Of a DNA stretch of 64,000 bases, positions 26,620-29,727 are shown piece by piece (within the stretch, counting starts at the first letter, position 1; the number at the start of each line of letters is the position of its first letter). The DNA is from Pirellula sp. SH-Sr6A (GTDB taxonomy: Bacteria > Planctomycetota > Planctomycetia > Pirellulales > Pirellulaceae). Where the stretch lies: contig NZ_CP011272.1 in assembly GCF_001610875.1 (NCBI RefSeq), positions 1,035,988 through 1,099,987 of the forward strand, given 5' to 3'. The translations under genes were made by a program, and so were the position numbers. A model generated the notes under the pieces. It saw only the letters and a list, made by a program, of their open reading frames with translations, searched no databases and was not told where the DNA came from.

Positions 26620-26994
26620 ATGGCTCGGCCAAAGATGGAGATTGATAAAGAAAAATGGCTCAAGGCCATTAAGGACCAAGGCGGGATGGTGACATTTGTC
26701 GCCAAGCAGCTTGGCATCTCTCGAAACACGGTCGCGAAGTACCGAGACGAAATCGATTGGGTTAAGGAAGCCTTCGAGGACGTTGAAGCCGAGACCCTTG
26801 ATCACGCGAACAAAACGATTCAAGCCGCTGTGAAGGAAGATTACAAGGCCGCTGCGTGGTATCTCGACAGGAAGGGCAAGGATCGAGGCTTCGGGAAAGA
26901 GGTCAAGGTAGACGCCAACGTATCGCAGCAAGCGGTTATTCATCTCCATTTGCCAGACGACGGGCGAGAGGATCCGGCAGCAGCGGATGAATAA
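26620..26994 (+). CDS. terS: Terminase small subunit
   Basis: 124 residues. A helix-turn-helix (MVTFVAKQLGISRNTVAKYR) recognises the packaging site, followed by helical oligomerisation sequence (LDHANKTIQAAVKEDYKAAA) and an acidic tail. It overlaps the large-subunit gene by 8 bases. Confidence 0.8.
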   Translation: MARPKMEIDKEKWLKAIKDQGGMVTFVAKQLGISRNTVAKYRDEIDWVKEAFEDVEAETLDHANKTIQAAVKEDYKAAAWYLDRKGKDRGFGKEVKVDANVSQQAVIHLHLPDDGREDPAAADE

Positions 26995-29452
26995 GCCCGA
27001 GAAGCCACCCATCAAGACGATACAGCCACAGCCAGGGCCCCAGACAGCTGCGTTTACCTCCAAGGCCGACATCATCATTTACGGTGGTCAGGCGGGAGGT
27101 GGTAAGTCTTGGTATTTGGTTAATGAACCACTTCGGAGAATCCACAATAAAGGTTTCCGAGGAGGCATCTTTCGCCGTACTTACCCCCAGCTAAAAGGCC
27201 AGGGCGGGGTTTGGGATGAGTGCCAGGAGATTTACAGAGCTTGCGGCGCTCGAATGCGGGAGGGGCAGGAGCTCGATGCGACATTTCCTAGCGGAGCGAA
27301 TATTGCATTCCTTCACCTCCAGCACGAGAAAACCAAATATGACTACCAAGGACACCAATTCTGTTGTGAAGTCGGTACGAGGATTAGAACCATTCGCGGA
27401 CTTGTCGCCGTTGAGGATCTTAAAGACGGCGACCTGGTGCAAACCATTGGAGGATTTCAGAAGGTGCTTCGAGTACAGCAGCCTCGGCTAGCGAAGTGTG
27501 TTGTTGCGACCGTTGGAGACAAGTCGCAGGTTCACACGACTGATCATCAAATTTTGACGGTTAATGGCTGGCAATCTTACGACGATATGTTTTGTGAATC
27601 TCACCCACCTTTGATTTCCGCACCCAAGGAATGTTGTGACGCTCGCAAATCTGAACTACCGTCTTGTGAGCTATCCCGAGCTCATTCTGGATCCTTCGAT
27701 AGCTCCAGCGCTGATCGGCTGCAACCTGTCGAATCAATTCGATTACGTTCGGATCGTCAATGTTCGTCGGTGGTTTCCTCTTCCTCTCCGCAACAATGTC
27801 AGGGAAGCGATTCCGTAGGGTTTGATGATGGCATCCAAGCATCGCGGCAGCTTCCTTTATTGACCTGCCTTGCATTGCTGCACGAACGGACTCTCGATTC
27901 AGCCTACTTCGCATTTTCTCCGCGTTCCTCTGGCAGTGAATTTTGCGATGCTCGGACTGACTCATTACCTGGAGATTCTCCGGAGCGTTGTTTGATCGAA
28001 CTTCATCGACATGATGAACAACCTCGCCTTTCTCCAAAAATCTACCAAGCTGGTCTTCCGCCACGAGCCTATGCTGAGCAACAAATCCCCAGCTATTTGC
28101 AGCCGGATGATCAGGGGAAAGTTCATAAACATATCCGGACACTAGAACGGTATGCCCACCCCTATACGAAGGCGGACGTTCATTGCTCTTGTCTGGTAGA
28201 GGTAAAAACTTGCGAGATGAAACCATGTGGTGAGCGCCTTGTTGTTGATGTGACTGTTGCAAACGAATCACACTACGTTAGCGAATCAGGGCTAATAAAC
28301 AAGAACTGCTACCTAGGGTTTGATGAGCTAACCCATTTCACCGAGTCCCAATTCTTTTACATGCTGTCGCGGAACCGTTCGACTTGCGGAATCCGGCCCT
28401 ACGTCCGCGCGACTTGCAACCCTGAGCCGGGGTGGGTCGCCGATTTCCTTGCGTGGTGGATCGATCAGAGCACAGGGTTGGCGATCCCAGAGCGTTCGGG
28501 AGTCGTTCGGTATTTCATCCGGGGAAACGATGAAAAGATTTACTGGGGTGATACGAAAGAGGAAATCATCGAGGAATTTCCCGAGTACAGCCCCGAGGAC
28601 ATCCTTAGCGTTACTTTCATCCTCGCCACGCTGGACGATAACAAAATCCTGCAAAAGAAAGACCCGGGATACAAGGCTCGGCTTATGTCGCTCTCGAAGA
28701 TCGAGCGGGATAGGCTTCTGGGGGGAAACTGGAAGGTTGCTGAGGGGGCGCAGATCAATGGCGAATGGATCAGGAAGTATTCCACGAACGCAGTGGAAAT
28801 CGAGTGTGTGTTCCAAGACATGCTTCTAAAACTACCGATGGCAATGATGCGGCGAATTGCGACCATCGACACCGCTGGGACATCGAAGGAAAAGGCCGCG
28901 AAGGATCGAGGCAAGGAACCGTCCTGGAGCGTTTGCGGAGTCTGGGACATCGTGACGCGCATGAGCGTGAACTACCAAGGGAGAGCGGTGCAGCTCAGCG
29001 AAATGATTTTCCTGCGCTACGTGTGGCGAAAACAAGTCGACTGGAACGGATTAAGGCAAGGAATTGACGAAACACTAGATACATGGAACGTGACAAAGGC
29101 TTATATTGAAAATGCTCACTTCGGCCAGGCCTTGAAGCAGGAAATCAAGTCTTGCCCATGTGAGTTAATAGGCCCAGTTTTGCCAGGGATGGGAGATCGT
29201 GGGGAAGGTGCTAAACTCGAAAGAGCGATCGCATCAGGGATGCTTTCTAGGTTCGAACATGGAAAGATATTTGTGCCGCGCGAGCCAAGCGACTGGCTAG
29301 CCGCCTACCTTCGAGAAATTGAGGCGTGGACAGGCAAGCCGGATGAAGTCGCGGACCAAATTGATATGACCTCTTACGCTTCCTACCTGTCGAAAAAAGG
29401 CGCTTCGGCTTGGGGTGGTGTAATTCAAACAAACCAAGGAATGATGAGATGA
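26987..29452 (+). CDS. terL: Terminase large subunit, interrupted by an intein
   Basis: An 821-residue precursor of the packaging motor. Walker A is GGQAGGGKS at 33-41. An intein occupies residues ~126-440. After its excision the sequence reads GHQF-CYLGFDELTHF, where LGFDE is Walker B, leaving a ~506-residue terminase of normal size. The nuclease domain follows: MRRIATIDTAGTSK, AYIENAHFGQAL and DEVADQIDMTSYASY supply the acidic residues. The ATPase powers DNA entry and the nuclease cuts concatemers. Without splicing the ATPase site would be split, so splicing should be required for packaging. Confidence 0.92.
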   Translation: MNKPEKPPIKTIQPQPGPQTAAFTSKADIIIYGGQAGGGKSWYLVNEPLRRIHNKGFRGGIFRRTYPQLKGQGGVWDECQEIYRACGARMREGQELDATFPSGANIAFLHLQHEKTKYDYQGHQFCCEVGTRIRTIRGLVAVEDLKDGDLVQTIGGFQKVLRVQQPRLAKCVVATVGDKSQVHTTDHQILTVNGWQSYDDMFCESHPPLISAPKECCDARKSELPSCELSRAHSGSFDSSSADRLQPVESIRLRSDRQCSSVVSSSSPQQCQGSDSVGFDDGIQASRQLPLLTCLALLHERTLDSAYFAFSPRSSGSEFCDARTDSLPGDSPERCLIELHRHDEQPRLSPKIYQAGLPPRAYAEQQIPSYLQPDDQGKVHKHIRTLERYAHPYTKADVHCSCLVEVKTCEMKPCGERLVVDVTVANESHYVSESGLINKNCYLGFDELTHFTESQFFYMLSRNRSTCGIRPYVRATCNPEPGWVADFLAWWIDQSTGLAIPERSGVVRYFIRGNDEKIYWGDTKEEIIEEFPEYSPEDILSVTFILATLDDNKILQKKDPGYKARLMSLSKIERDRLLGGNWKVAEGAQINGEWIRKYSTNAVEIECVFQDMLLKLPMAMMRRIATIDTAGTSKEKAAKDRGKEPSWSVCGVWDIVTRMSVNYQGRAVQLSEMIFLRYVWRKQVDWNGLRQGIDETLDTWNVTKAYIENAHFGQALKQEIKSCPCELIGPVLPGMGDRGEGAKLERAIASGMLSRFEHGKIFVPREPSDWLAAYLREIEAWTGKPDEVADQIDMTSYASYLSKKGASAWGGVIQTNQGMMR
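27362..28306 (+). other. Intein in terminase large subunit
   Basis: 315 codons in frame with terL. Block A starts at Cys126 (CCEVGTRIRT, with VAVEDLKDGDLVQT). Block B is GDKSQVHTTDHQILTVNGW with the TxxH motif. Blocks F and G are RLVVDVTVANESHYVSES then GLINKN followed by Cys+1. The penultimate residue is Lys rather than the usual His. The splicing blocks make up ~80 N-terminal and ~40 C-terminal residues, the size of a mini-intein. The ~195 residues between them are Ser/Pro/Arg-rich without endonuclease motifs, because this DNA encodes an HNH protein on the other strand. Confidence 0.88.
27561..28226 (-). CDS. HNH homing endonuclease encoded antisense inside the intein
   Basis: 221 residues from ATG 28226 (a GTG at 28271 would extend it). 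The HNH core reads FVAQHRLVAEDQLGRFLEKG, EVVHHVDEVRSNNAPENL, then SEHRKIH: HH at 71-72, Asn80, His93 and His97. Two helix-turn-helix-like segments follow (SIKEAAAMLGCHHQTLRNR and YRRIQNELGIAHKTVVQI), typical of specificity domains in phage intron-type HNH enzymes. The gene lies wholly inside the intein DNA, on the opposite strand, with its wobble base opposite the second codon position of terL. It should cut intein-less terL and spread the intein. Confidence 0.85.
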   Translation of the reverse strand: MVSSRKFLPLPDKSNERPPSYRGGHTVLVSGYVYELSPDHPAANSWGFVAQHRLVAEDQLGRFLEKGEVVHHVDEVRSNNAPENLQVMSQSEHRKIHCQRNAEKMRSRLNRESVRAAMQGRSIKEAAAMLGCHHQTLRNRFPDIVAERKRKPPTNIDDPNVIELIRQVAADQRWSYRRIQNELGIAHKTVVQICERHNIPWVRKSKVGEIHKTYRRKIASH

Positions 29453-29727
29453 GCGGACAGGCGAAGACGCAAAAGAAATTGGTCGAGGACTTGAACACCA
29501 ACGACAAAGACCCGTTTCTGAACCTAACAACGGTTGCGCGAGCCCTAGGAAAACATTCAACCACTATTCGCAATTGGGTCAACGATGGCATAATTGCAGC
29601 AACCCGATTCCCCAACGGGCTGTACAAGATCCGAAAAAGCGACCTGGAGAAGCTACTGAGCGTTTCTCGCATGAGAGACAACAAGGAGATTCTGGATCGC
29701 GTGAGTAACCTTGAAGGCGATTTATAA
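29449..29727 (+). CDS. Small MerR-like HTH protein
   Basis: 92 residues, ATGA overlap with terL. LNLTTVARALGKHSTTIRNW then VNDGIIAATRFPNGLYKIRK is a winged helix of the excisionase/MerR kind. Its position between terminase and head genes is unusual; it might help packaging or regulate late genes. Confidence 0.6.
   Translation: MSGQAKTQKKLVEDLNTNDKDPFLNLTTVARALGKHSTTIRNWVNDGIIAATRFPNGLYKIRKSDLEKLLSVSRMRDNKEILDRVSNLEGDL

Follow-up and report, generated by a model that had tools for sequence, protein, structure and literature searches.

The usual account of intein mobility invokes one bifunctional protein: a Hint splicing domain is split by a homing-endonuclease insert, and the insertion points lie at conserved active sites of the host protein. 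Homing endonuclease genes also occur antisense in group I introns, where the nuclease is encoded on the strand opposite the host gene. Here we describe an element in the gene for the large terminase subunit (terL) of a prophage of Pirellula sp. SH-Sr6A, lying in a 64,000-nucleotide stretch of contig NZ_CP011272.1 (the window; positions count from its first letter), in which a plus-strand intein contains a minus-strand gene for an HNH endonuclease. From sequence comparison and structure prediction, we put the probability at roughly 0.8 that this is a mobile mini-intein at the Walker-B segment of TerL, with its homing endonuclease as a separate, opposite-strand gene in the intein's middle. The element shares with canonical mobile inteins the split Hint domain and the active-site insertion point, but its nuclease lies outside the intein polypeptide, on the opposite strand, with its own start and stop. 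It shares the strand arrangement with antisense-nuclease group I introns, but those splice as RNA and need not be an open sense frame.

The nearest published layout is found in mycobacteriophage methylases, where the ShiLan domain and Pacc40 are out-of-frame HNH insertions (Arsenault et al. 2025, PMC11855218). As in the window, the HNH gene is hidden in another frame of an in-frame phage-gene insertion and is presumed to home. The passages of that paper on ShiLan-type insertions place the HNH on the same strand, without a splicing domain, and report no intein or intron there. The window, in contrast, has a Hint domain and an opposite-strand HNH, and a ShiLan-type insertion was rejected for it on both counts. 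The words 'antisense', 'opposite' and 'reverse' are absent from the paper's main text. For overlapping frames in actinobacteriophages it cites a preprint by Gosselin, Arsenault and Gogarten (2025, bioRxiv 10.1101/2025.01.02.630785, 'Actinobacteriophage Inteins: ... Non-Canonical Architecture'), which, going by its title and the citing paper, may hold related cases of inteins with overlapping-frame endonucleases. Full-text literature searches returned no title or abstract opening describing an antisense endonuclease in an intein.

An intein in terL with an HNH gene on the opposite strand

The features of the locus are as follows.

26987-29452, plus strand: terL, a single open frame of 821 codons (821 amino acids)
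26987-27361, plus strand: TerL N-extein, residues 1-125, containing the P-loop GGQAGGGKS; from alignment to intein-less TerLs L001-L003 and PHROG terminase families
27362-28306, plus strand: intein, 315 codons in frame, C126 to N440; from the L001-L003 alignment, Hint_2, the AlphaFold Hint fold and PDB intein matches
27362-27601, plus strand: N-terminal splicing region, intein residues 1-80, with C1, GT and a block-B-like TTDH; block means of model confidence (pLDDT) 85-98
27602-28153, plus strand: linker read in the sense frame, intein residues 81-264, with most of the HNH gene on its other strand; pLDDT mostly <55, no Pfam match
28154-28306, plus strand: C-terminal splicing region, intein residues 265-315, ending ...VVDVTVANESHYVSESGLINKN/C (slash, splice junction); pLDDT block means 72-97 from residue 261
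28307-29452, plus strand: TerL C-extein, with +1 Cys and a Walker-B-like FDE segment; Terminase_6N 4.1e-19 and alignment to L001-L003
27561-28226, minus strand: antisense HNH endonuclease gene, 221 amino acids, probable ATG at 28226, stop at 27561-27563; HNH_3 2.1e-12, phrog_7545 5.8e-19, model mean pLDDT 86.8
27945-28076, minus strand: HNH_3 domain (Pfam), residues 66-109 of the minus-strand open reading frame (ORF)
27612-27890, minus strand: helix-turn-helix (HTH)/DNA-binding region, with HTH_23, HTH_28, weak NUMOD1 and model helices
28237-28240, minus strand: Shine-Dalgarno-like AAGG, read from the sequence, 10 nucleotides before the ATG at 28226

Terminase large-subunit families match both flanks of the insert (Pfam, PHROG), and within the host genome terL matches only itself. 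Alignment to intein-less TerLs from three viral contigs, L001-L003 (64% identity in the best segment), leaves exactly residues 126-440, nucleotides 27362-28306, as an in-frame block missing from the homologues. The junctions read GHQF/C126...N440/C441YLGFDE, and the +1 position, Cys in the window, is Ala in the intein-less proteins. In an AlphaFold model built with 23 family members, the two intein ends form a confident Hint fold with predicted disorder between them (residues ~81-260, pLDDT mostly <55). Foldseek matched this model to 12 PDB chains at E<=1e-3, eight from inteins and four from intein-like BIL2 domains. C1, H62 and N315 are invariant in 23/23 aligned inteins. The Hint fold is accompanied by the expected splicing residues: C1, the block-B His, the terminal Asn and a +1 residue from the Cys/Ser/Thr set.

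On the opposite strand, the ORF spans 27561-28271 and could begin at a GTG at 28271. It matches HNH_3 (2.1e-12), HTH_23 (1.1e-6) and PHROG HNH families (down to 5.8e-19), and thus combines an HNH motif with DNA-binding segments, as HNH homing endonucleases do. The HH...N...N...H catalytic positions are invariant in 30/30 aligned antisense HNHs, and 30 family members went into the protein model. The original prediction, made from the sequence alone, had proposed a terL intein with an HNH endonuclease on the opposite strand and had staked the idea, besides splicing of the precursor, on similarity of the minus-strand frame to HNH enzymes and on the lack of an in-frame plus-strand endonuclease. 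The observation is confirmed and correct to the base, given the junctions, the Hint fold and the minus-strand HNH_3, and the latter two points hold. In the sense intein Pfam returned no endonuclease domain, only Hint_2 (3.5e-6; 27.9 bits, just below the cut-off of 28.4). The locus therefore differs from a canonical bifunctional mobile intein, which has its endonuclease in the splicing polypeptide. A group I intron with a homing endonuclease gene is ruled out, as Rfam gave no match at E<=1 on 26900-29500.

Recurrence in viral contigs and isolated phages

Two relatives found through TerL similarity, L037 and L152, each had an antisense HNH within the insert. As sole query against the viral contigs, the window HNH found no relatives; an alignment of the three antisense HNHs (window, L037, L152) succeeded, and the best 80 of its 387 relatives were taken, chosen by HNH similarity alone; the contigs behind L037 and L152 appear there as L197 and L225. 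Of these 80 loci, 58, forming 49 clusters at 90% identity, have the HNH antisense inside a covering ORF of 583-1504 codons. The phase is identical in 58/58: a sense codon pairs with positions 2 and 3 of one HNH codon and position 1 of the following one. Recurrence across TerL inteins had been set as a test beforehand, and its outcome is strongly positive. Around the HNH of the remaining 22 loci, any opposite-strand ORF is shorter than 400 codons. All 80 HNH stop-to-stop ORFs are at most 355 codons long, too short for any to be an in-frame portion of a large intein-bearing protein.

Direct matches to one of two TerL exteins account for 41 of the 58 sense ORFs. The other 17 comprise five terminases (L231, L234, L239, L244, L275), one phage DEAH-box helicase, two ORFs with no terminase match (L251, L256) and nine identified no further. 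The helicase (L259:1703-6214, minus strand) carries Intein_splicing (3.4e-9) around its antisense HNH, and the class is therefore not confined to terL. Thirty-five inteins could be delimited by motifs; every one is a whole number of codons and contains the HNH gene. Their insertion points lie immediately ahead of the Walker-B FDE segment, within the P-loop (following GK or preceding SGK/TGK), or in the helicase. In L203 the stop-to-stop HNH ORF begins 25 nucleotides outside the intein, with its first ATG inside. A scan of GTDB genomes gave 116 pattern matches and just one relative, a free-standing HNH (L291). Among 99 genomes related to the host, HNH matches occurred in two besides the host itself; in G018 and G033, no long opposite ORF covers them.

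The arrangement is also present in isolated phages. A P-loop-type HNH query against the phage collection matched Pectobacterium phage Ymer, whose 754-residue 'hypothetical protein' (L277:1571-3835) is TerL plus an intein (Terminase_6N/6C, Intein_splicing) and is so annotated because of the intein. The Ymer HNH is antisense, in the same phase as in the window, and unannotated. Eight isolated-phage records carry this P-loop type, from seven Pectobacterium phages and Dickeya phage Setonix (record marked UNVERIFIED). Seven of the eight were analysed, with Abuela left out; the HNH lacks annotation in all seven, one record being wholly unannotated. Intein-less relatives exist, such as Escherichia phage KW1E_UTAR (~71% identity across residues 340-754). 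In the same collection the L222 HNH had no match; the window and L200 HNHs had many, of which two for the window (H47, H49) and none for L200 were examined. Across seven phage HNH neighbourhoods, Ymer is nested antisense, ShiLan is nested on the same strand, and five have no long covering gene in the annotation. With several independent contigs and isolated phages carrying the arrangement, an assembly artefact is ruled out.

TerL inserts take other layouts too. A second class consists of inteins at a C-terminal TerL site (EDH/C...N/C) whose HNH is encoded on the same strand, in frame +2: G251 (L017:1041-3365, minus strand), L117, L118, L119, L120 and L147, with HNH_3 scores of 3.8e-16 for L017 and 4.5e-13 for L117. 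Both kinds share one ORF in L251:89-4069 and L266:956-4267 (both minus strand), with one antisense and one same-strand, shifted-frame HNH each. A canonical example is L097:1531-4422, a terL P-loop insert with an in-frame LAGLIDADG_3 (6.4e-13); L111:1546-4422 is nearly identical to it across the insert. A short TerL P-loop insert of ~140 residues in L092:2971-4872 has no endonuclease by Pfam.

Selection, phase and inheritance of the antisense gene

How often a covering frame would be open by chance was estimated by re-coding each of 50 antisense HNHs synonymously 400 times, with codon usage taken from the part of the host gene that does not overlap the HNH. The 50 were the window and 49 cluster representatives, the latter preselected for lying opposite an ORF that covers them in any phase and measures at least 400 amino acids. 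The observed phase was expected open in 0.075 of 50 and was open in 50/50, although the members are related and do not amount to 50 independent trials. The easiest phase to keep open is a different one, expected in 1.35 of 50 and seen in none; ease therefore does not account for the phase choice. The 22 HNHs without a covering ORF were open in the observed phase in 0/22 and in the easiest phase in 3/22. Phe followed by Ile, Met, Thr, Asn or Lys, which makes a sense-frame stop, occurs at 0/191 Phe in antisense HNHs versus 22/89 in these 22 controls, an absence explained by the open sense frame.

Variants were counted in the seven Ymer-group phages. In the HNH-only part of the overlap, 19 of 31 are silent for the HNH against 25% expected (p = 2.6e-5), and 5 of 31 are silent for the sense frame against 27% expected. 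The 12 variants in the stretch shared by the HNH ORF and the N-terminal splicing region favour neither frame clearly. Variable sites make up 171 of 1398 extein positions, 12 of 138 intein positions beyond the overlap and 43 of 726 positions within it. In 27 more distant pairs, some sharing members, differences at HNH codon positions 1, 2 and 3 number 1675, 1282 and 2861. The substitution counts indicate that the HNH frame is under purifying selection in one group of isolated phages, that of Ymer. Constraint on two amino-acid sequences at once therefore seems absent from the overlap: the HNH frame is constrained, and the sense frame seems to need only to stay open, because splicing would discard its product. 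The earlier proposal that the DNA must stay open in two overlapping frames stands with this correction. The tripeptide HPY (intein residues 266-268, window 28157-28165), invariant in 23/23 Walker-B-type inteins, faces a conserved Y-x-GG segment of the HNH.

An HNH tree of 73 rows was read against insertion-site groups assigned by inspection, a few of them from one end where the contig is cut. The TerL Walker-B HNHs and the P-loop HNHs each fall on one side of a branch (supports 82/92 and 93/83), and the four insertion-site labels require three changes, the minimum. This match of HNH clade to insertion site lends indirect support to the idea that the nuclease would cleave the empty allele. The AU test does not reject a single clade for every antisense HNH (p = 0.361), and the P-loop and Walker-B groups may have arisen once or independently. 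With phase identical in 58/58 and HNHs clustering by insertion site, the antisense arrangement is inherited; the suggestion that an HNH gene had inserted backwards privately at this locus is not borne out.

Across 36 elements compared for HNH, intein-end and extein identity, intein and HNH are common to TerLs whose exteins are only 23-28% identical. L275 and L276 share 60% in the HNH, 55% in the intein ends and 23% in the extein; for L258 and L276 the values are 52%, 62% and 27%. High identity of HNH and intein, yet low identity of exteins, points to joint horizontal transfer of the two. The pairs L225-L253 and L240-L257, by their identities, look vertically inherited. Signals for separate translation are also present: of the antisense HNH ORFs, 49 have an ATG within their first 70 codons, and in 30 of these a Shine-Dalgarno-like match precedes the first ATG, whereas internal ATGs have such a match in 22 of 156 cases (Fisher p = 4e-10).

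Proposed mechanism, alternatives and meaning

In the proposed mechanism, the TerL precursor would self-splice to intact TerL, the DNA of the nuclease gene being read through on the sense strand as a lengthy linker, apparently without structure, between the Hint halves. An antisense transcript with its own start inside the intein would be translated to the HNH-HTH endonuclease. This enzyme would cleave terL copies that lack the intein, close to the Walker-B codons, and in the repair that follows intein and nuclease gene would be copied together. By extension, we consider it quite probable that inteins like this one form a widespread phage class, with the homing endonuclease as an autonomous antisense gene in one fixed phase, outside the intein polypeptide. 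As a protein such an element would be a mini-intein with a neutral read-through linker, and as DNA a two-gene mobile element with opposite expression, beside the second class with a same-strand, shifted-frame HNH at the C-terminal TerL site.

Several observations weigh against the mobile-intein reading. The penultimate intein residue is Lys, where His is usual. Foldseek found no PDB match for the HNH model at E<=1e-3, with I-HmuI in 12th place at E=0.67; the HNH identity of the protein is carried by the sequence profiles and the invariant catalytic positions. The branch supports for the Walker-B and P-loop groups fall below the tree tool's 95/80 star line. A search of 27300-28900 gave no sigma-70-like promoter, and the first ATG of the Ymer HNH has no Shine-Dalgarno match. 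Finally, the isolates are of the P-loop type, and no phage record proved to carry the Walker-B type seen in the window, the L222 HNH having no match and, of the many matches to the window and L200 HNHs, two and none having been examined.

The HNH might instead be a free-standing selfish gene that landed in a mini-intein and cuts elsewhere, so that intein and nuclease are not one element. Free-standing relatives do exist, since 22 of the 80 HNH-selected loci lie outside a long opposite ORF. We nevertheless find this unlikely: the HNH subclades fit the intein insertion sites with the minimum of three changes for four groups, the phase never varies among the 58 loci, the HNH gene lies inside every one of the 35 delimited inteins, and the pair recurs together in TerLs with strongly diverged exteins.

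It is very improbable that the sense insert is an unspliced, tolerated insertion, as suggested for the ShiLan domain. Out-of-frame HNH insertions of that type without splicing domains are on record, in the passages of PMC11855218 cited above, and the sense middle is predicted to be disordered. The Hint fold is confident, however, with C1, H62 and Asn315 invariant in 23/23 inteins, and an unspliced form inside the Walker B or P-loop of an ATPase should be lethal. That the HNH is a relic in a decaying element, its frame open by accident, is hardly credible given the purifying selection on the Ymer-group frame, the third-position excess in the 27 pairs, the catalytic residues invariant in 30/30 and the Shine-Dalgarno matches.

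If the mobile mini-intein reading holds, one piece of DNA carries splicing on one strand and homing on the other, as two separate genes, and does so within essential packaging genes of many phages; the isolated phages with this arrangement can be tested. A stretch of about 200 codons can then encode a folded enzyme in one direction, and all that is asked of the complementary strand is an open frame. The antisense layout explains why such nucleases go unannotated, and it would allow the nuclease to be produced independently of late TerL synthesis.
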